DNA of 64,000 nucleotides from Geothrix sp. Lineage in GTDB: Bacteria; Acidobacteriota; Holophagae; Holophagales; Holophagaceae. Location: the NCBI RefSeq assembly GCF_020622065.1, contig NZ_JAHRYQ010000001.1:1-64000 (forward strand). The letters run 5' to 3'. Below the pieces are notes generated by a model that was not told the origin of the DNA, did not search any database, and saw nothing but the letters and a program-made list of their open reading frames with translations. Made by a program: the position numbers and the translations under genes. Each line of letters starts with the position of its first letter. The stretch's first letter is position 1. Shown in pieces: positions 12,462 through 22,145 of this stretch.

Positions 12462-13097
12462 TCAGGGTTCCAGGTGGATGAGGCCGCGGCGGAGGGCCAC
12501 CACGGCGGCTTCGGTGCGATCCTTCACCTGGAGCTTGCGGAGCAGGTTGTTCACATGGATCTTCACGGTGGGCTCGGCCAACCCCAGGTTCTCGGCGATT
12601 TCCCGATTCCGCTGTCCCAGGGCCAGGAGGCGCAGCACATCGAGCTCCCGCGGCGTCAGGCGTTCGGCCTCCATGGCCTCCACCAGCCGGGCGGCGGTGG
12701 CGGGCGGCAGGTAGCGCTGGCCGGACGCCACGGCCCGCACGGCCTCGATGAGCGTGGCGCGCCGGACGCTCTTCAGCAGGTAACCCCGGGCCCCGGCCTC
12801 GAGGGCGCGCTGGATGTCCGCGTCCCCGTCGAAGGTGGTGAGCACCAGCACCCGGGCTTCGGGATCTTCGCGCCGGATGGCGATGATGGCTTCCACGCCC
12901 GACTGGCCCGGCAGCTGAAGGTCCATGATGGTGACCGTGGGCTTCAGGGTGCGCCAGGCCGTCACGGCCTCGCGGCCGTCCCCGGCCTCGCCGACCACTT
13001 CCAGATCGGGTTCCCCCTGATGGAGGATGGCGACGAGCCCATCCCGCACGACGGGGTGGTCATCCACGATGAGCAGCGTGATGGGGGTCGCGGTCAT
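12462..13097 (-). CDS. NarL/LuxR-type response regulator
   Basis: 211 residues. Receiver domain with acidic pocket VDDHP, phospho-acceptor Asp59 (VTIMDLQLPG) and Lys in YLLKSV; C-terminal LuxR-type HTH (about 145-211, LTPRELDVLRLLALGQRNRE...TVKIHVNNLLRKL). The ATG at 13097 overlaps the stop of the upstream kinase (ATGA), the usual coupled arrangement; a GTG nine bases further upstream is an alternative. It should be phosphorylated by the kinase at 13094-16075 and bind DNA as a dimer. Its targets are unknown, but the pair diverges from the cytochrome cluster, making that cluster a reasonable candidate. Confidence 0.95.
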   Translation of the reverse strand: MTATPITLLIVDDHPVVRDGLVAILHQGEPDLEVVGEAGDGREAVTAWRTLKPTVTIMDLQLPGQSGVEAIIAIRREDPEARVLVLTTFDGDADIQRALEAGARGYLLKSVRRATLIEAVRAVASGQRYLPPATAARLVEAMEAERLTPRELDVLRLLALGQRNREIAENLGLAEPTVKIHVNNLLRKLQVKDRTEAAVVALRRGLIHLEP

Positions 13098-16075
13098 AGG
13101 TGCCACCTTTGGGTGGGAAGGGTGATGGTGATGCGGGTGCCGAGCCCCGGACTGCTGTCGATGTCGATGCGCCCCCGCAGCTGGCGGACGCTTTCCCGGA
13201 TGCTGCGCATGCCGTAGCCCGCCGCGTCGGCGGAAGGGTCGAAGCCCTGCCCATCATCCTCGATGTTGAGGCGGACCTGGCGCCCTTCGTACTGCAGCAC
13301 CACCCGCACCCAGCGGGCCTTGCCGTGGCGCAGGGCATTCGTGAGCGCCTCCTGGGCCATGCGGAGCAGCTCCTCCTCCACCCGCCGGCCCAGGGGGCGG
13401 GGTTCGCCGGTCTGGGCCAACTCCACCTGGATCTCCGTGCCGGCCAGCAGGCGGTCTGACAGCACGCGCAGGGCGCCCAGGAGGTTCGTGCCCTCGGGCC
13501 GGTGGGGGCGGAGGGCCATGACGGACCTTCGGGCCTCCTGCAGGCTGGCTACGGCCAGCTTGCGGGCATGATCGAGGCGGGTCAGCACGGGCTCCGGGTC
13601 GCCTTGCAGCCGGGCCAGCTTGGCTTCGGCGGCCTCGATCTGCAGCAGCACGCCGGTGAAGCCCTGGGCCAGGTGGTCGTGGATCTCACGGGCCATGCGG
13701 TTGCGCTCGCCCAGCACGGCCGACTTCGCCTCCAGCTGCTGAAGGCGCAGGCGGAGGAGCCACCAGGCGAACGCCCCCGCGCCCAGTGCGCACACCACCC
13801 AGAAGACCGGCCGCTGGTACAGGTAGGGCTGGACATGGACCTCGATGGACTGCTCCTGCGGGGGGCTATCCTCATCGAGCCGCCAGGCCTGGAGGACGAA
13901 CCGGTAGGTCCCCGGCGGCACATTGGAGTAGGCCGAGAACCGGCGGTCGCCCACCTCGTTCCAGATGTGCTCCAGGCCCTCGAGGCGGTAGCGGAAGCGG
14001 ACTTTGTCCGCCCTCGTGAGCGAGGTGGCGGTGTAGTACACCTCGAACCGATGGGTGCCCGGGGGGACCTGGATGGGGACGGTGTCGGGCAGAACCGTCT
14101 CGTCGCTTTCGGCCTTCAGGATGTGGAGGCGCAGCGCGGGGCCGGCCTTGGGCGGGGGCGGGGAGGAAGCCCGGCCGTCCAGCCGCGCAAGCCCGCGGCT
14201 GGTGGGGAAGTACAGGTCGCCTTCGCGGGTGAGCCAAGCCACAGGCTGCGGGCCGTTACGGGTCTCCCGGGAGGGCATGCCATCGTGGTGGTCGAAGACC
14301 ACGGCCGGAATGGAGCCTGCTTCATTGAGGCTCTTGATCAGGGCCGCGCGGGCGATCCGGAAGACGCCCTGCCCGGTGCTCAGCCACATCCGGTGCGCGC
14401 CATCCTCCAGGATGCCGTGGATGGCGAGGAGCAGGGGGCCGGGGCGTTCCCCGAAAGTCTGGAAGATGCCGTCCCGGTACCGCCGCAGGCCCTCCGGGGT
14501 GCCGATCCAGAGGAATCCCTCGGCATCCAGGTGCAGGGACAGGGCGCCACTTGAGCCCAGCCCTTCCGCACGGCCCAACCAGCGCACCGTGCTGGAGTCG
14601 AGAATGCCCAGCCCCTGCGTGCGGCTCACCAGATACAAGGGGGCTGATCCGCCTCCCGTCATGGCGAGGGCACCCTGGACGGCGGGGAACAGAACGGGGG
14701 CGGCGCCTGGTGCGAGCTTGAGCAGGCCCTGGCGGGAGGTGGCGACCCACAGGATGTTCTGCGGATCCTCGTACAGCGACATGATGGCGTCCGGCGAGGG
14801 TCCCTCAGGCCGGCGGACCCGGCGGAACTGGCCTTCGTACCGTTCATACAGCTCGCCGTTGCGGGTGCCCACCCACAGTCCCCCGGCCCGGCGGGGCCAG
14901 ATGGCGGTGATGGGGCCACCGGGGTTTCCCGGGCCCACACGATGGACGCGCCCCTGGCGGATCTCCCCCAGGGACTGGTCTCCCGTGACGCACCAGACGG
15001 TGCCCTGGGCGTCCTGGCAGACCATGAGGGCGGGCTCTTCGAGATCCGCGCCGACCACGGGCAGCGTCTGGAACGGCACGGGGTAGAGCACACGCAGGCC
15101 ACGGCCTTCGGTGCCGGACCACAGGGCACCGGAGCTGTCCTCAAGCAGGGCGAGGGGTGTCCAGCGGGAGCCGGCAGGCGCGGGGGCGGTCTCCAGGGAA
15201 CCGGCTGGCGTCCGGCGGAAGAGGCCGGTCTGTTCGAGCCCGACCCACAGGCTGCCCTGTCGGTCCACGAGCAGGGCACTGATGGCCCGGGGCGGCAGGC
15301 CCTTCGCCCAGGCCGCCGCTTCGAGCCGGCCTTCGGTGAGCGTCAGCAGGCCCTGGGAGCGGGTTCCCACCCAGATCTCCCCTTCGACGCCCGCACCGAG
15401 GGCCGTAATGTCCGTGGAGGCCAGCGCGGCCAGGACCAGCCGTCCTCCCTGGAGGCGCCACAAGCCCGATCCTGCGGTGCCCACCCAGAGTGTCCCGTTC
15501 GGGTCTTCGACGATGGCGCGGATGGTCAGCCGGGCCGCATCCGAGGGTACGGTCTGGAACCGGGTGCCGTCGAACCGGAGCAGGGGTCCCTCCTGGGGGG
15601 CTGCCCAGAGTGTGCCGCTGCGATCCTGGAGCAGGCGCAGGATGGGCTGGTCGGGCAGGCCCTCTGCGGCGCCGAAGGCCCGGACCGCGCCGTCCTGGAA
15701 CCGGTAGAGCCCAGCCTCTGAGGTGCCGATCCAGATGCTGCCACCGGGACCTTCCGCCAGGCAGTGGATCTCGTTGTGTGCGAACCCCGGCACATTGAGG
15801 CGGGAGTAGTGATCGAAGGTGGCGCCGTCGAAGCGGACCAGGCCCGCCTCCGTGCCGATCCACAGGAAGCCGTCCCGGGACTCGAGGAGGGCGGTGGCCG
15901 TGTCCTGGAGGAGGCCATCCTCGCTGCGCCAGAGGTGGCTGGCGTGGGTGGAGAGGGGCCGGGCGGGGTCCAGGGCGAAGCCCGTGACGCTGGCCCAGAG
16001 GCATGGCAGGACGATGACAAGGCGCCGCAAGGCCCCCCGAGGGGAAGGTCGGTTTCCTGCAATCTGCGGGCACAT
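13094..16075 (-). CDS. Two-component propeller sensor histidine kinase (Reg_prop, Y_Y_Y, HisKA_3)
   Basis: 993 residues. An N-terminal signal or anchor segment (RRLVIVLPCLWASVTGFAL, about 17-35) precedes a periplasmic seven-bladed-type propeller region with many repeats of the W(I/V)GT...GL.R.. form (about 40-640). Then come a Y_Y_Y domain (about 655-740, VYYTATSLTRADKVRFRYRL), one transmembrane helix (about 748-770), a HisKA_3 dimerisation domain with His799 (REIHDHLAQGF) and an HATPase domain. Such one-gene sensors often detect polymers or surface conditions. It is coupled to the NarL-type regulator and transcribed away from the multihaem cytochrome gene. Confidence 0.94.
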   Translation of the reverse strand: MCPQIAGNRPSPRGALRRLVIVLPCLWASVTGFALDPARPLSTHASHLWRSEDGLLQDTATALLESRDGFLWIGTEAGLVRFDGATFDHYSRLNVPGFAHNEIHCLAEGPGGSIWIGTSEAGLYRFQDGAVRAFGAAEGLPDQPILRLLQDRSGTLWAAPQEGPLLRFDGTRFQTVPSDAARLTIRAIVEDPNGTLWVGTAGSGLWRLQGGRLVLAALASTDITALGAGVEGEIWVGTRSQGLLTLTEGRLEAAAWAKGLPPRAISALLVDRQGSLWVGLEQTGLFRRTPAGSLETAPAPAGSRWTPLALLEDSSGALWSGTEGRGLRVLYPVPFQTLPVVGADLEEPALMVCQDAQGTVWCVTGDQSLGEIRQGRVHRVGPGNPGGPITAIWPRRAGGLWVGTRNGELYERYEGQFRRVRRPEGPSPDAIMSLYEDPQNILWVATSRQGLLKLAPGAAPVLFPAVQGALAMTGGGSAPLYLVSRTQGLGILDSSTVRWLGRAEGLGSSGALSLHLDAEGFLWIGTPEGLRRYRDGIFQTFGERPGPLLLAIHGILEDGAHRMWLSTGQGVFRIARAALIKSLNEAGSIPAVVFDHHDGMPSRETRNGPQPVAWLTREGDLYFPTSRGLARLDGRASSPPPPKAGPALRLHILKAESDETVLPDTVPIQVPPGTHRFEVYYTATSLTRADKVRFRYRLEGLEHIWNEVGDRRFSAYSNVPPGTYRFVLQAWRLDEDSPPQEQSIEVHVQPYLYQRPVFWVVCALGAGAFAWWLLRLRLQQLEAKSAVLGERNRMAREIHDHLAQGFTGVLLQIEAAEAKLARLQGDPEPVLTRLDHARKLAVASLQEARRSVMALRPHRPEGTNLLGALRVLSDRLLAGTEIQVELAQTGEPRPLGRRVEEELLRMAQEALTNALRHGKARWVRVVLQYEGRQVRLNIEDDGQGFDPSADAAGYGMRSIRESVRQLRGRIDIDSSPGLGTRITITLPTQRWHL

Positions 16076-16366: not shown

Positions 16367-19300
16367 ATGAACAGGACTTGGAATTGGAACCGGACGATGG
16401 GGCTTCTGGGTGGTCTGGCCTTCGCCTTGCTCCTGGTCCTGGTGGGCTGCGGGAGCGGCAAGGGGGCCGCCGGGGTCACTCAATACTATGGGAACTACCA
16501 CCCGGCCGGCTGGATCGGCAACCACGCCGGACAGGCCGTGGCGGGGGTGGATGCCTGCACCAAGTGTCATGAGATCTCCGTCCTCAAGGTCGGCAGCGGG
16601 GTGCCCACCTGCATGACCACGGGCTGCCACCACCAGACCGTTTCCGGATGGGCCGATCCGGCCATCCACGGGGTGCGCGCCAAGATGGCCGCGAGCACCG
16701 TGACCGGCGGAAGCCTCGTCTCCTGCCAGATCTGCCACGGGAAGGCGTTTGCCGGCGGAGGCTCCGCCAATGCCTGCGTCACCTGCCACGGTGTCAGCGC
16801 GCCGCATCCGCCGAAGCCCTGGCGCACCACGGGCGGCACCGTCTTCACCCACATCACCACCGATCCGTCCAATGCCGCCGTCTGCGCCCAGTGCCATTTC
16901 GCCGGATCGCCCAGCAATCCCATCGGGCATCCCGCCACGCCCGCGCCCGCCGGCACCCAGCCCGGCTGCTACAACGCGACCCTCTGCCACGGCGCCAACG
17001 CCGCGCCGCACCCGGTTCCGTTCCTGGTGGGTCAGACCGACTCCCAGCTGAACGGACACATGACCGTCACGGCGGCAGCCTTCGCCGCGGACTGCGCCAG
17101 CTGCCACGCCTATTCGGGCACTTCCCCCACGGCTTCCGCGCCGCTCTGCAACACCTGCCACCAGCTGGCGGATCCCACCGCGGCCGGCACCAATGCCGGA
17201 ACCTGCCTCTCCTGCCACGCCGGCACGGCGGGCCTGCCCAAGGGGCCCGGCGGCACGGGCTTCCCCAGCATCGCCGGGGCCCACGCCAAGCACATGGCAC
17301 TGGCCACTGCGCTGAGCTGCGACACCTGCCATGCGGGCAGCGGGACGGGAACCACCACCCACTACACGAATGCCAACGCGCGCATCGGCGTGCCGACAAG
17401 CCCCGCCAGCGTCTCGATGGATCCGATCTTCATGGCCAAGACCGGGGGCAACCCGTCCTTCAATCCATCTGCGCTCACCTGCTCCAATGTGAGCTGCCAC
17501 GGCGGCCAGGTCACGCCGGGCTGGCAGAACGGAACCATCAACTCCGCAACCCAGTGCACCGCCTGCCACGCGGTGGCCACCAGTGCCGGGACGGCGACCC
17601 AGTTCAATGACGCCTTCGGCCGGCACAGCATCGGCACCCACAATGCCACGGTGCCCGCCAACGCCATCGCCTGCACCACCTGCCACAACATGGGGAACGG
17701 TTCGCCCGGAGCCCTGGCCCACTTCAAGTATCTCAACACGGGGGCCGTGGACGGTCTCTCCACCGGCACCCCGGCGGATCAGCTGCCCAGCGGCACCATC
17801 GTCTTCGACCCCGCCATCGTCTCGGCCCCCGGGACCTACACGGTCACGAGCGCCACCCAGGGCAACGGCGGCTGCGCCCTCACCTGCCACAGCCACATCC
17901 ACACGGTGTCGTTCGATACCTGGACCGCCAGCGGGGCACCGCATCCCGTGCCCTTCCTGGGCAACCAGGTCGATACGCAGAACAACGGCCACCTGACGGC
18001 CACCCAGGCCACCTTTGCGGCGGATTGCGGCACCTGCCATGCCGTTTCCGGCACCTCGCCCGTGGCGGGCAGCCCCCTCTGCGCCACCTGTCACACCCTG
18101 GCCGATCCCACCGTGGCCGCGACCGGGACGGGCACCTGTCTGTCCTGCCATGTGGGCCCCTCGGGGATTCCGGCCGGTCCCACCGGCACCGCCTTCCCCA
18201 ACATCGCCGGCGCCCATGCCAAGCACATGGGGCTGCCCACCGTGCTGAAGTGCGACACCTGCCACGCCGGCAGCGGGACGGGCACGACGACCCACTACAA
18301 CAACGCCAACGCCCGGGTCACGGCCCCGGTAGGCCCGGCCCCGGTGAGCATGGATGCCACCTTCAACGCGCAGAGCGGCGGATCGGCCTCCTTCAATCCC
18401 ACCGCGCTCACCTGCTCCGCCTCGAGCTGCCATGGCGGCCAGGTGACGCCCAACTGGCGCACTGGCACCATCACCTCCACCTCCCAGTGCTCGCTCTGCC
18501 ACGCGATCAACGGCGGCACCGCGACCTCCCAGTACAACGACGCCGTCGGGCGCCACGCCTGGGGCACGCACGCCACCGCCGCCACGCTGGACTGCACCCT
18601 CTGCCACGACATGACCTCCGCCAACACTAGCGGTGGCGCGGTCAACCACTTCGCCGAGCTCAACACCCCCGCCGTCAGCAGCACGAACAAGCTGCCCAGC
18701 GGCACGATCAAGTTCAAGCTCACCAACACCACCTATCCGATCACCGGGGCCGCGACCTACACCATCAACGCCACGACCCCCGAAGGGGACGGTGGCTGCG
18801 CCCTCACCTGCCACAGCCAAGTCCACAATGCCGTCGATAACCACTGGAACGCCCCCAAGGGCTCCGGGATCGCCCACCCCGTGCCCTTCCTGAGCACCGA
18901 TGTCAGCAGCGCAGGCAACCACCACCAGACCCTGACACTCGCCCAGTTCAACGGCGAATGCATCAACTGCCACGATCAGAGCGGGACCACCACCAAGAGC
19001 GGACCCGTGTGCACGGTCTGCCACACCCTTGGTTCCCCCGTGGCCGCGGGCATGACGGCGGGCACCTGCCTCTCCTGCCATGTGGGCGCCAGCTTCACCA
19101 CCCAGGGCCCGACCGGCACCGCCTGGCCGAACCTGCAGGGCTCCCACCCCAAGCACCTCTCCCTGCTCACTTTCACCCGCACCTCACCGGCCCTGCCCGC
19201 GTCGATGACGGCCTCGGCCTATCCGGATTGCGCGGCCTGCCACGCGGGTTCCGTGCCCGGAGATCCGGCCCAGACGCACTACAGCAATGCCAACAAGCGT

Positions 19301-19837
19301 CTGGCCTCGCCGATCACGGCCGGCCCCGCCTCGGTGGCGATCGATCCGGCGTTCAATGCCAAGAGCGGGACGGCCGGCACCACCGCCAGCGCCTCAGCCT
19401 TCACCTGCTCCAATGTGAGCTGCCACGGCGGCCAGACCACGCCCGGATGGCAGACCGGCACCCTGACCGTGAACGCCACCACCTACTGCATCGCCTGCCA
19501 CAAGGTGGCTTCCACGGCCACGCAGTTCAACGACGCCACGGGCCGTCACAACAACCCGAGCCAGCACAACCAGACCTGCGACTACTGCCATGTCATGACG
19601 CAGGCCACACCCGGGGCCCTGAACCACTTCAAGTACCTCGACACCTCCGCCGTCAGCGGCGTCAGTGGCACGCCTTCCGATCAGTACCCCAGCGACACCG
19701 TGAAGTTCGGCGGCGGCGCCACCCCGGCCACGGGCGCGCTCACCTACACCGTCACCTCGGCCACGCAGGGCCGCGGGGGCTGTGCCCTCACCTGCCACGG
19801 GCAATCGCACACCACGGCGGGCAACACCTGGAACTGA
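16367..19837 (+). CDS. Giant multihaem c-type cytochrome lipoprotein, 30 haem-type motifs
   Basis: 1156 residues. The ATG at 16367 gives a lipoprotein signal: basic N-terminus, hydrophobic core GLLGGLAFALLLVLVGC, lipobox Cys28. I count 30 motifs ending in CH: 22 CX2CH, 4 CX4CH (for example CSNVSCH), 3 CX3CH (each CALTCH) and 1 CX5CH (CYNATLCH). Six lie in the N-terminal part. The other 24 lie in three tandem units of 311, 311 and 320 residues, each starting at HPVPF (residues 215, 526, 837) with eight motifs in the same order. The type is the CX4CH/CX2CH family known from Geobacter. Conserved extra histidines (HAKHM, THY, GRH) can supply distal ligands. A cell-surface or periplasmic electron carrier is likely; the lipid anchor and downstream barrel suggest the outer membrane. 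Actual haem number needs measurement. Confidence 0.93.
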   Translation: MNRTWNWNRTMGLLGGLAFALLLVLVGCGSGKGAAGVTQYYGNYHPAGWIGNHAGQAVAGVDACTKCHEISVLKVGSGVPTCMTTGCHHQTVSGWADPAIHGVRAKMAASTVTGGSLVSCQICHGKAFAGGGSANACVTCHGVSAPHPPKPWRTTGGTVFTHITTDPSNAAVCAQCHFAGSPSNPIGHPATPAPAGTQPGCYNATLCHGANAAPHPVPFLVGQTDSQLNGHMTVTAAAFAADCASCHAYSGTSPTASAPLCNTCHQLADPTAAGTNAGTCLSCHAGTAGLPKGPGGTGFPSIAGAHAKHMALATALSCDTCHAGSGTGTTTHYTNANARIGVPTSPASVSMDPIFMAKTGGNPSFNPSALTCSNVSCHGGQVTPGWQNGTINSATQCTACHAVATSAGTATQFNDAFGRHSIGTHNATVPANAIACTTCHNMGNGSPGALAHFKYLNTGAVDGLSTGTPADQLPSGTIVFDPAIVSAPGTYTVTSATQGNGGCALTCHSHIHTVSFDTWTASGAPHPVPFLGNQVDTQNNGHLTATQATFAADCGTCHAVSGTSPVAGSPLCATCHTLADPTVAATGTGTCLSCHVGPSGIPAGPTGTAFPNIAGAHAKHMGLPTVLKCDTCHAGSGTGTTTHYNNANARVTAPVGPAPVSMDATFNAQSGGSASFNPTALTCSASSCHGGQVTPNWRTGTITSTSQCSLCHAINGGTATSQYNDAVGRHAWGTHATAATLDCTLCHDMTSANTSGGAVNHFAELNTPAVSSTNKLPSGTIKFKLTNTTYPITGAATYTINATTPEGDGGCALTCHSQVHNAVDNHWNAPKGSGIAHPVPFLSTDVSSAGNHHQTLTLAQFNGECINCHDQSGTTTKSGPVCTVCHTLGSPVAAGMTAGTCLSCHVGASFTTQGPTGTAWPNLQGSHPKHLSLLTFTRTSPALPASMTASAYPDCAACHAGSVPGDPAQTHYSNANKRLASPITAGPASVAIDPAFNAKSGTAGTTASASAFTCSNVSCHGGQTTPGWQTGTLTVNATTYCIACHKVASTATQFNDATGRHNNPSQHNQTCDYCHVMTQATPGALNHFKYLDTSAVSGVSGTPSDQYPSDTVKFGGGATPATGALTYTVTSATQGRGGCALTCHGQSHTTAGNTWN
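17009..19837 (+). repeat. Three tandem coding repeats, 311-320 codons each
   Basis: Unit 1 spans 17009-17941, unit 2 17942-18874, unit 3 18875-19837. Units 1 and 2 are exactly 933 bases. Each begins with HPVPF and encodes motifs in the order CX2CH x4, CX4CH, CX2CH x2, CX3CH, with shared blocks such as GTCLSCH, GTTTHY.NANAR and CHGGQVTP. Internal protein duplication rather than a mobile repeat. Confidence 0.9.
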
Positions 19838-19876
19838 TCCACCCCTCGCCTTTTCCACCACCCCATAGGAGGTCCC

Positions 19877-20233
19877 ATGCGACGCGCCATCCTCACCGCT
19901 CTGCTGCTTGCCGGAGCGACCCTGTCCGCCGGTGATCCGGCCAAGGACCTGCCGAAGTTCCAGGGTGGCGATCTCCAGAAGTACTGGACGGACGCCTGCG
20001 CCCGCTGCCACGGCGTGAATGGCAACGGCCGCGACAACAGCGGCAAACCCCTGCCCGATGCGGGCTTCGACTTCACCGACAGTCGCAAGGCCAACAAGAA
20101 GAAGGACGGCGACTGGGTGAAGGTCACCCTCGAGGGCAAGGACAAGATGCCGGCCTTCAAGGACAAAATGTCCGAGGCCGATGCCCAGAAGATGATCACG
20201 GAGATCGTCCGCAAGTTCGCCGCCAAGCGCTGA
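19877..20233 (+). CDS. Small monohaem cytochrome c (class I-like)
   Basis: 118 residues. A signal peptide (MRRAILTALLLAGATLSAG, cleavage near 18) leads to one CARCH haem site (Cys41, Cys44, His45) followed by GVNGNGRD, as in soluble class I cytochromes. A likely distal Met sits in KDKMPAFKDKM, and the C-terminal helix AQKMITEIVRKFA closes the fold. AGGAGG precedes the ATG. It lies 39 bases after the multihaem gene and 13 before the barrel gene, so it probably shuttles electrons across the periplasm between the membrane protein and the surface cytochrome. Confidence 0.93.
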   Translation: MRRAILTALLLAGATLSAGDPAKDLPKFQGGDLQKYWTDACARCHGVNGNGRDNSGKPLPDAGFDFTDSRKANKKKDGDWVKVTLEGKDKMPAFKDKMSEADAQKMITEIVRKFAAKR

Positions 20234-20246
20234 TCCTGGAGATCCG

Positions 20247-21116
20247 ATGACACGGAAGCTCGCTCCCCTGCTCGCCTGCTCCCTCCTGGCCGGGGGAGCG
20301 CTTCACGCCGAGTCCTCCGAATACCCGCTGGTGGTGAACCTGCCCTCGGCGGAGCGGATGCAGTACTGGGACATCGGCGTTGCCTTCACCCACCGGTTCA
20401 TCCAGCCCGTGAAGGATCACGGGAAGGATGTCTACGGTCTGGACGGCTACACCTACGCGGGACTCGGCTTCGCCTTCGGCATCAAGCCGATCCCGGGGCT
20501 GAACGCCTTCATCTACCGCACGGCCGACAACAAGACCTTCACCTTCGGCTTGCAGCAGCAGGTGCTGGATCGGGAACGCGTCCGTCTGGCCGTCCGGGCC
20601 GAGCGCTTCGACGAGGTGGTGAAGGAAACCGTGACGCCCATCGGCCGGGTGGGCCTCTCCGGGGCCGTCCTCCAGGTGCCCACGGAGATCTTCATCACGG
20701 ACGACATCATCTTCTCGATCGTGCCGGCCTACATCACGAAGACCACCACCACCGATACGATCCTGGCGGTGCCCCCCGGGGCCACGCCCAACACCACGCC
20801 CAACACCGGCGGAGTCTTCAATGTGGGCCTGGGGCTGCGCGTCAGCTTCACGGAGAAGTTCTCCTTCGTGAGCGAGTACTACCCCCGGCCCTCCAAGTTC
20901 TCCAAGGCCGCGCCCGGCGGCATCACCGATGGAACCACCTACCAGCGGGGCTTCGCGGCCGGTGTCTCCTACAAGACCTTCAAGCACCGCTTCACCCTTG
21001 TGGGCACCAATGTCCCCGGCACCACGGCGAACCAGGTCCTGAGCGGGGACTACGGTGGTGGGCCCCGGCCCTCCTCCCAGTGGTCCATCGGCTTCAATGT
21101 CACCCGCGTCTTCTGA
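20247..21116 (+). CDS. DUF5777-type outer-membrane beta-barrel protein
   Basis: 289 residues with a cleavable signal (ACSLLAGGALHAES). The mature part begins VVNLPSAERMQYWDIGVAFTHRF and contains YGLDGYTYAGLGFAFGI, alternating amphipathic strands and a C-terminal aromatic (TRVF), all typical of DUF5777 barrels. No haem motif. Such barrels are repeatedly found next to cytochromes in Acidobacteria and Bacteroidetes, but I know of no assigned function. Here it could be the porin sheath through which the lipoprotein cytochrome contacts periplasmic carriers; that role is inferred from context. Confidence 0.82.
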   Translation: MTRKLAPLLACSLLAGGALHAESSEYPLVVNLPSAERMQYWDIGVAFTHRFIQPVKDHGKDVYGLDGYTYAGLGFAFGIKPIPGLNAFIYRTADNKTFTFGLQQQVLDRERVRLAVRAERFDEVVKETVTPIGRVGLSGAVLQVPTEIFITDDIIFSIVPAYITKTTTTDTILAVPPGATPNTTPNTGGVFNVGLGLRVSFTEKFSFVSEYYPRPSKFSKAAPGGITDGTTYQRGFAAGVSYKTFKHRFTLVGTNVPGTTANQVLSGDYGGGPRPSSQWSIGFNVTRVF

Positions 21117-21128
21117 GGTCAGCGATTC

Positions 21129-22145
21129 ATGTCCGCTTCACCCCTTCTGGAATTCGTCGCCCGCGAGCATCCGGCCTTCGTCCACATCCCCCTCGGGCTG
21201 GTGGCGGTGCTGCCCCTGGCGATGCTGGCCTCCTTTCATCCCAAGCATGTCCGTCTGTGGACGGGCACTTCATTCTTCCTCGCCCTCGTGGGCTGGCTGG
21301 GCAGCACGGCAGCCCTGTTTAGCGGCCTGATCTGGGGCCGCCAGATCGCCCTCATCCCGCCGAAGGGGTTCTTCCCGGTCGTGGCCACCGAGAAGCAGGT
21401 GCTGCAGCGCATCCTCCAGGTCCATGAGATGGCGGCCCTGAGCGGCTTCCTCATCGGCGGCTTCTGCGTCTGGCTTCTCTGGGGCTCCTGGCGCCAGGTG
21501 GAGGCCCACGACGGCGCCACCCACCGGAGGCACGGAGGCCGCCGTTTCTGGGAACGCGGCGTGGGGGCCGCGCCCCTCCTGGTGGGCGTTCTCTGGCTGG
21601 CCTGTTGGGGGCTCAGCGGCAAGCTGGGGGGCGTGATGGTCTTCGGAAGCGAGGAGACCAACCGGGCCGCAGCCGAGGCGGACGCCGCCAAGCATGCGGA
21701 CGCCGAGGCCGACCTGCCCATCCGGGCCCTGGATTACGCGAGCCTCGAGCCCATCACTCCGGAGCCGGTGCGGAGCAAGGCCCATGGAAACCGCTGGCGG
21801 CGCATCTGGGTCACGGCCTCCGGCGCCGATGCCTACCAGGCGGGCAAGCCCCTGCCCCCGGGGGCCTATGCCGTGATGTCGACCTTTGAGGACGACAAGG
21901 GCAAGCCCAGCCATGAGCCGGGCCCCCTCTACATGAAGGAGACGAAGGCTGATGGCAGCACGGCCTTCGCGTTCTACTGGCCCCGGGTGCCCGAGGCGCT
22001 GCGCAAGGACATGGAGAACCAGGACAGCGTCTACTGGCGGAGTCCCGATTCCCATCTCGCGGTCTGTCTCGGCTGCCACGAGAAGAAATCGGCGCCGGCC
22101 CAGCCACTTACGGCAGGTAGTGCTGGGGGTCCGGGAAAGCGCTGA
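21129..22145 (+). CDS. DUF2231-like membrane protein with C-terminal P460-like haem domain
   Basis: 338 residues. The N-terminal 165 form about four membrane helices beginning HPAFVHIPLGLVAVLPLAMLA, the DUF2231-type HPxxVHxP entry, with another histidine in LQVHEMAALSGF. A charged linker leads to a soluble domain (about 215-325) with GNRWRRIWVTASGADAYQAG, LPPGAYAVM, GPLYMKE and WRSPDSHLAVCLGCHEKK, which resembles cytochrome P460 including the terminal CXXCH. It could be the inner-membrane entry point for electrons in this cluster. Its 3' end overlaps the convergent kinase gene by 38 bases. Domain names are from recognition by eye. Confidence 0.78.
   Translation: MSASPLLEFVAREHPAFVHIPLGLVAVLPLAMLASFHPKHVRLWTGTSFFLALVGWLGSTAALFSGLIWGRQIALIPPKGFFPVVATEKQVLQRILQVHEMAALSGFLIGGFCVWLLWGSWRQVEAHDGATHRRHGGRRFWERGVGAAPLLVGVLWLACWGLSGKLGGVMVFGSEETNRAAAEADAAKHADAEADLPIRALDYASLEPITPEPVRSKAHGNRWRRIWVTASGADAYQAGKPLPPGAYAVMSTFEDDKGKPSHEPGPLYMKETKADGSTAFAFYWPRVPEALRKDMENQDSVYWRSPDSHLAVCLGCHEKKSAPAQPLTAGSAGGPGKR

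Follow-up and report, generated by a model that had tools for sequence, protein, structure and literature searches.

A cluster of four genes at positions 16367-22145 of the window analysed here (64,000 nucleotides, positions 1 to 64,000 of contig NZ_JAHRYQ010000001.1 of Geothrix sp., assembly GCF_020622065.1) is a conserved and real variant, probably not reported so far, of the outer-membrane cytochrome-porin systems, in which a capped pore would replace the sheath model. In its specific form, which we hold tentatively and just short of even confidence, this reading describes an outer-membrane redox locus built around a cytochrome-capped small porin, with two additions in Holophagaceae, a multihaem lipoprotein of modular make-up and a membrane cytochrome of DUF2231 type. 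The capping in Geothrix, the cell location of the components and their participation in extracellular electron transfer are points that we infer. All four genes lie on the forward strand and, according to open reading frame (ORF) analysis of the window, are separated by gaps of 39, 13 and 12 bases:

16367..19837, + strand: 30-haem lipoprotein cytochrome of 1156 amino acids (aa), lipobox Cys28; haem motif layout, given as n in CXnCH, 242225 followed by 3 x 22224223
16448..16996, + strand: hexahaem N-terminal domain of this lipoprotein (aa 28-210), recognised by blastp homology to a 216-aa hexahaem lipoprotein encoded on the second contig
17093..17890, + strand: octahaem module 1 (haems 7-14)
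18026..18814, + strand: octahaem module 2 (haems 15-22)
18959..19798, + strand: octahaem module 3 (haems 23-30)
19877..20233, + strand: exported class-I monohaem cytochrome c of 118 aa with CARCH and KMP (Pfam), the proposed barrel cap
20247..21116, + strand: DUF5777 outer-membrane beta-barrel of 289 aa with 12 predicted strands (PF19089, AlphaFold2, structure comparison)
21129..22145, + strand: DUF2231-type membrane protein of 338 aa, with a weakly P460-like C-terminal domain ending in CXXCH (CLGCH)

This composition largely agrees with an earlier note made from the sequence alone, which had described four co-oriented genes with gaps of 11-39 bases (a slightly loose range), encoding a lipoprotein with 30 haem-type motifs, a monohaem cytochrome c, a DUF5777-type barrel without haem, and a DUF2231/P460-like protein with CXXCH. 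The arrangement and the first three products were confirmed, although the label 'CX4CH lipoprotein', like the gap range, is slightly loose if in essence correct. As to the fourth product, the DUF2231 affiliation, seen in most homologues, and the C-terminal CLGCH stood, while the P460 likeness turned out to be weak and below the cut-off.

Comparison of the gene order across genomes, a check proposed in the same note, revealed that the four genes form a conserved unit in Holophagaceae, with 31 complete loci and one truncated at the edge of its contig. In all 32 loci of named Holophagaceae and Geothrix genomes, cytochrome c is followed by the barrel and then by gene 4, which rules out the gene order being a local accident, and the multihaem gene lies ahead of cytochrome c in 31 of them, the 32nd contig beginning at cytochrome c. 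Since the loci were retrieved via the barrel, these figures measure linkage rather than prevalence; most of the sampled Geothrix genomes carry the set, but not all. The named relatives carrying it are Geothrix and Holophagaceae of the phylum Acidobacteriota, and the octahaem module is restricted to Holophagaceae, being found in 24 genomes of 6 genera among 396 Acidobacteriota genomes. Divergent members of the set (loci L080-L084), with gene 4 being 50-62% identical, retain the gene order, and their barrels form a single clade with the Geothrix barrels, supported at 99% by the Shimodaira-Hasegawa-like approximate likelihood ratio test (SH-aLRT) in a quick tree.

DUF5777 (PF19089) was the sole match of the barrel protein, with 69.6 bits against a Pfam gathering cut-off of 23.1, and no haem motif is present; a profile search against PDB sequences gave nothing useful. 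The AlphaFold2 model, obtained with 29 homologues, has 12 strands (predicted local distance difference test, pLDDT, 68.3; predicted template modelling score, pTM, 0.69). In the structure comparison with VIA-align, the top or near-top matches were KdgM (Z 17.3, root-mean-square deviation 2.1, 166 residues), NanC (Z 16.7) and VhGalP (Z 16.6), and Foldseek concurred (KdgM, TM-score 0.79 by target); these searches rank narrow barrels highest, which does not show the barrel to be unrelated to wider ones. The likeness to the narrow 12-strand porins concerns the predicted barrel geometry, whereas the sequence identity is about 10%, and KdgM, NanC and VhGalP are sugar-acid channels without cytochrome partners.

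The predicted width of the barrel bears on the possibility of a classical porin-cytochrome conduit, in which the DUF5777 barrel would sheathe part of the 30-haem lipoprotein, so that an unbroken wire of haems would run through the outer membrane. The barrel and multihaem genes are adjacent and co-conserved, as such a conduit would have it, and a larger barrel, in a cluster rich in MtrC/OmcA-type cytochromes, likewise has a gene for the hexahaem domain next to it. However, the MtrB sheath has 26 strands (PMC8406198), the Geobacter barrels ExtB, ExtE and ExtI have 18-21 predicted membrane strands (PMC6148476), and a 16-strand barrel was deemed too narrow even for the one-haem domain of Cyc2, which is thought to plug the periplasmic opening (PMC8406198). 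With 12 predicted strands and matches to narrow porins, against 18-26 strands in known sheaths (PMC6148476, PMC8406198), enclosure of the multihaem protein by the DUF5777 barrel is, to judge from the model, unlikely; in addition, DUF5777 barrels mostly occur without a multihaem protein. A classical conduit thus appears quite improbable. The earlier note had assigned the barrel a sheath role and called for a structure prediction of the barrel with the lipoprotein N-terminus; the narrow barrel predicted here does not support that role, and the evidence described below ties it instead to the monohaem cytochrome.

Gene 2, located directly upstream of the barrel gene, encodes a protein matching Pfam Cytochrome_CBB3 with 38.4 bits (cut-off 27), with Cytochrom_C also above its cut-off, and the haem and Met regions are near-invariant in Holophagaceae. 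The DUF5777 barrel is present in 118 of the 396 sampled Acidobacteriota genomes (about 30%), and among 66 DUF5777 loci of this phylum outside Holophagaceae a one-electron carrier is either fused to the barrel (17 loci) or encoded beside it (30 loci), amounting to 47 in total. The fused carriers are 13 N-terminal CXnCH domains and four cupredoxins (that of L152 recognised by Pfam), while the adjacent ones are 20 monohaem cytochromes c with a Met-Pro motif and 10 cupredoxins. In a subset of 25 loci, 15 haem and 6 cupredoxin ORFs were found on the same strand within 600 bp of the barrel, against a background of one haem and no cupredoxin ORFs on both strands of 236 kb of farther flank. L151 (Cytochrome_CBB3, 42.2 bits; DUF5777, 114.4), L120 (PSCyt1, 37.6 bits; DUF5777, 135.2) and L152 (Cupredoxin_1, 40.4 bits; DUF5777, 97.4) each have a single ORF in which both parts of the fusion exceed their Pfam cut-offs.

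Nine of the 13 haem-fused proteins have a Met-ligand-type cytochrome domain, and in the other four (L126, L240, L242 and L256) CXXCH occurs in other domain contexts; L242 and L256 represent a further fusion type, with CXXCH and then a Reeler-like-looking domain, judged by eye, before the barrel. On the DUF5777 tree, built in a quick version, the fused-haem label changes at least four times on well-supported branches, so that fusion was gained or lost repeatedly, as expected of physical partners. Each of the four plasmid loci with DUF5777 found in Bacteroidota encodes, no more than two genes away, YceI and a small haem protein, which is monohaem except in Emticicia, where it is dihaem. By the gene-fusion argument, these sequence comparisons suggest that the monohaem cytochrome c and the DUF5777 barrel most likely act together.

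The iron oxidases Cyc2/Cyc572 likewise combine a c-type cytochrome of one haem with a barrel in the outer membrane, and in 13 Acidobacteriota loci, as in Cyc2, both are found in one polypeptide with the cytochrome at the N-terminus. However, the hallmarks of Cyc2 are AXPXFAR[Q/K][T/Y] upstream of CXXCH and a 16-strand barrel (PMC8406198); this motif is absent from the window cytochrome and from all 13 fused relatives, and the medium-confidence model has 12 strands rather than 16 (PMC8406198). Moreover, Holophagaceae use two genes (19877-20233 and 20247-21116), fusion being seen only in distant relatives, a cupredoxin can stand in for the cytochrome, and extra multihaem and membrane partners are present. 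Given the missing motif and the unfused genes, the locus was not filed as Cyc2.

MtrCAB, PioAB and MtoAB likewise combine an outer-membrane barrel with multihaem cytochromes, but their barrel belongs to MtrB_PioB rather than DUF5777 and has 26 strands instead of the 12 predicted here, and decahaem MtrA and MtrC stand in place of the modular lipoprotein with its 6+8n haems. No match to MtrB_PioB (PF11854) was found in the whole genome. The Geobacter conduits ExtABCD, ExtEFG, ExtHIJKL and OmbB-OmaB-OmcB are also multi-gene clusters of a barrel and lipoprotein cytochromes, and share the TIGR01904 CxxxxCH/CxxCH cytochrome domain, which was first defined in Geobacter; the Ext barrels differ in having 18-21 strands (PMC6148476), a comparison made by published strand counts only. 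The proposal that the set differs from both MtrCAB and the Geobacter systems was supported, and the barrel falls outside the MtrB/PioB family. In published work, MtrB- and ExtB/E-like conduits have been reported for Holophaga (PMC7399161), and homologues of extEFG and mtrF for genomes of Holophaga and Geothrix (PMC11748539). No mention of DUF5777 or PF19089 was found in the 5.39 million papers of open-licence literature searched, which does not prove absence elsewhere.

The multihaem lipoprotein (lipobox LVGC) contains 61 cysteines; the lipobox takes one and the haem motifs account for exactly the other 60, and this match led us to reject a chance origin of the motifs. The 30 motifs comprise 22 CX2CH, three CX3CH, four CX4CH and one CX5CH, and their layout defines the hexahaem N-terminal domain and three octahaem modules. 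The TIGR01904 multihaem family was matched with 55 bits, above the curated cut-off of 27, and the hexahaem domain shares 39% identity over 212 aa (E 5e-39) with the free-standing lipoprotein of contig 2. Compared with PDB sequences by phmmer, the multihaem protein gave chance-level matches only, and an AlphaFold2 prediction for one octahaem module with 65 relatives reached a pLDDT of 48 and a pTM of 0.31, so that no fold is claimed.

Relatives carry 1 to 5 octahaem modules, and some add blocks of four haems that close with a long CX9-14CH-like motif, resulting in haem totals of 15, 18, 20, 22, 26, 30, 34, 42 and 50 among the locus and its relatives; the count of 24 in L055 refers to a gene cut by the contig end. 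The octahaem repeat, in its 1-5 copies in orthologues, thereby provides a natural series for the effect of haem number on electron transfer. The long variable motif closing the four-haem blocks in L053, L059, L081 and L082, from about CX9CH to CX14CH (e.g., CYSASYDNGVHGTVGCH), is a putative haem motif. Two giant orphan relatives were also found, one of 2664 aa with 72 haem motifs (L212:6939-14933, - strand) and one of 2126 aa with 54 motifs arranged as 6 + 6x8 (L211:7060-13440, - strand); both are encoded near a permease gene and have no adjacent barrel.

For gene 4, the membrane part of which is N-terminal, DUF2231 (PF09990) was matched at E<=0.01 by 13 of 15 homologues, that of L080 scoring 27.1 bits against a cut-off of 26.4, while the window protein had no hit at E<=0.1. 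P460 (PF16694) scored 15.8 bits in the window protein (E 0.019), below the cut-off of 27, and E values under 0.01 were obtained for two of the 15 homologues, the best being 0.0019. A profile search against PDB sequences gave nothing useful. His14, His19, His99, Cys313, Cys316 and His317 are invariant in the 15 homologues, and it is possible that a b-haem is held by the membrane His residues. The earlier note had seen in this protein a possible quinol-side or radical-handling entry, for which the P460 assignment is weak.

Gene 4 has a paralogue on contig 2 (L216:7075-8082, - strand), located beside genes for a 459-aa CXXCH protein and a chemoreceptor-like protein, with homologues in most Holophagaceae. 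In L135 (G416:C1:518873-519763) the gene-4 homologue contains an in-frame TAG, and may be decaying or affected by a sequencing error. At L119:6911-8916 (- strand), a fused cytochrome-DUF5777 barrel adjoins the gene of a membrane protein whose C-terminal domain carries CXXCH, in parallel with genes 3 and 4 of the window.

Upstream of the set, in the opposite orientation, lies a two-component pair that could regulate it and is kept beside it in Geothrix (assignments by Pfam):

12462..16075, - strand: divergent two-component pair, possible regulator
13094-16075, - strand: Reg_prop propeller sensor kinase
12462-13106, - strand: NarL-type regulator

The conserved sensor could be taken as a sign of periplasmic detoxification or sensing (e.g., of nitric oxide, hydroxylamine or metal stress), with the P460-like gene 4 product, the monohaem cytochrome c and the channel handling a small reactive molecule and the multihaem protein acting as an electron sink. 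The weak P460 similarity, the chemoreceptor-like gene beside the gene-4 paralogue, and YceI and Rieske proteins as Bacteroidota neighbours would fit such a role. However, the P460 score is under the curated cut-off, and a lipoprotein with 30-50 haems is far bigger than such chemistry requires, making this explanation highly doubtful.

For the capped-pore locus, we tentatively propose that DUF5777 forms a narrow 12-strand channel, at the periplasmic mouth of which the monohaem cytochrome c docks, as proposed for the fused domain of Cyc2. Through the pore, the capping haem would trade electrons with a small soluble redox species, such as an Fe(II)/Fe(III) chelate or a shuttle of the flavin or quinone type. 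The lipoprotein, consisting of one hexahaem and at least one octahaem modules, would serve as an outer-membrane-anchored electron wire and store, added in Holophagaceae, and the DUF2231-type protein with its c-haem domain would connect it to the inner membrane. The known iron reduction by Geothrix, which lives in soil and sediment, favours an outward flow of electrons, without fixing its direction.

Several findings weigh against this scheme. Confidence in the barrel model is medium (pLDDT 68, pTM 0.69), and 19 of the 66 DUF5777 loci show neither carrier by the criteria used, a number that is an upper bound on true absences, since the gene caller is crude and at first passed over L152 and probably L051. 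Paralogous barrels of the same genus (L047-L052, L147 and L148) have no monohaem gene, and in L143 the multihaem gene and the barrel are retained, while the monohaem and DUF2231 genes were not found. Finally, most DUF5777 bearers have no multihaem neighbour, and the general role of the family therefore need not be extracellular electron transfer.

The window locus is the second candidate conduit of its genome, not the sole one; the latter assumption was rejected because a more classical cluster is present on contig 2 (816000-835900; L188:6142-18488, - strand). It encodes a 466-aa barrel-like protein, a pentahaem lipoprotein, the 216-aa hexahaem lipoprotein and three MtrC/OmcA-type decahaem lipoproteins, with an adjoining ResB/CcsB-like assembly gene. 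By layout it is like the Geobacter Ext clusters, which is a lead rather than an assignment of membership. L213 and L214, from two further Geothrix genomes, have the modular cytochrome next to a barrel of 461/500 aa, and L213 also contains a pentahaem gene; along with the homology of the hexahaem domain, this indicates that modular cytochromes of this type go with more than one kind of barrel, and both observations also count in favour of the capped-pore reading. Alternatively to the capped-pore locus, the multihaem lipoprotein could serve the contig-2 conduit (the 466-aa barrel and the pentahaem lipoprotein), leaving DUF5777 and the monohaem cytochrome c as a separate accessory channel, e.g., for the passage of shuttles or metals, and the occurrence of the orphan giants (54 and 72 haems) away from any barrel is in line with this. 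However, all 32 loci (one of them contig-cut) keep the multihaem gene together with DUF5777, and it is the multihaem-barrel pair that is kept in L143, so that we regard this partnership as unlikely.

Beyond Holophagaceae, we would suggest, with still more reserve than for the locus itself, that the DUF5777 barrel and its monohaem c or cupredoxin partner make up an unrecognised second family of cytochrome-porins, fused or split, in Acidobacteriota and Bacteroidota, analogous but not homologous to Cyc2, and that Holophagaceae extended this core by a multihaem lipoprotein with expandable repeats, giving a new type of electron-transfer system at the outer membrane. If DUF5777 barrels are indeed channels capped by a cytochrome, a large proportion of the bacteria common in soil may swap electrons with shuttles or soluble metals in a way that would escape the current marker-gene searches based on MtrB, Ext and Cyc2.

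Several Geothrix genomes contain a second DUF5777 barrel, about 50% identical, that adjoins a divergent stand-alone DUF2231 gene (L048:6090-6803 and L052:6010-6600, both on the - strand), and the link between DUF2231 and DUF5777 thus recurs.

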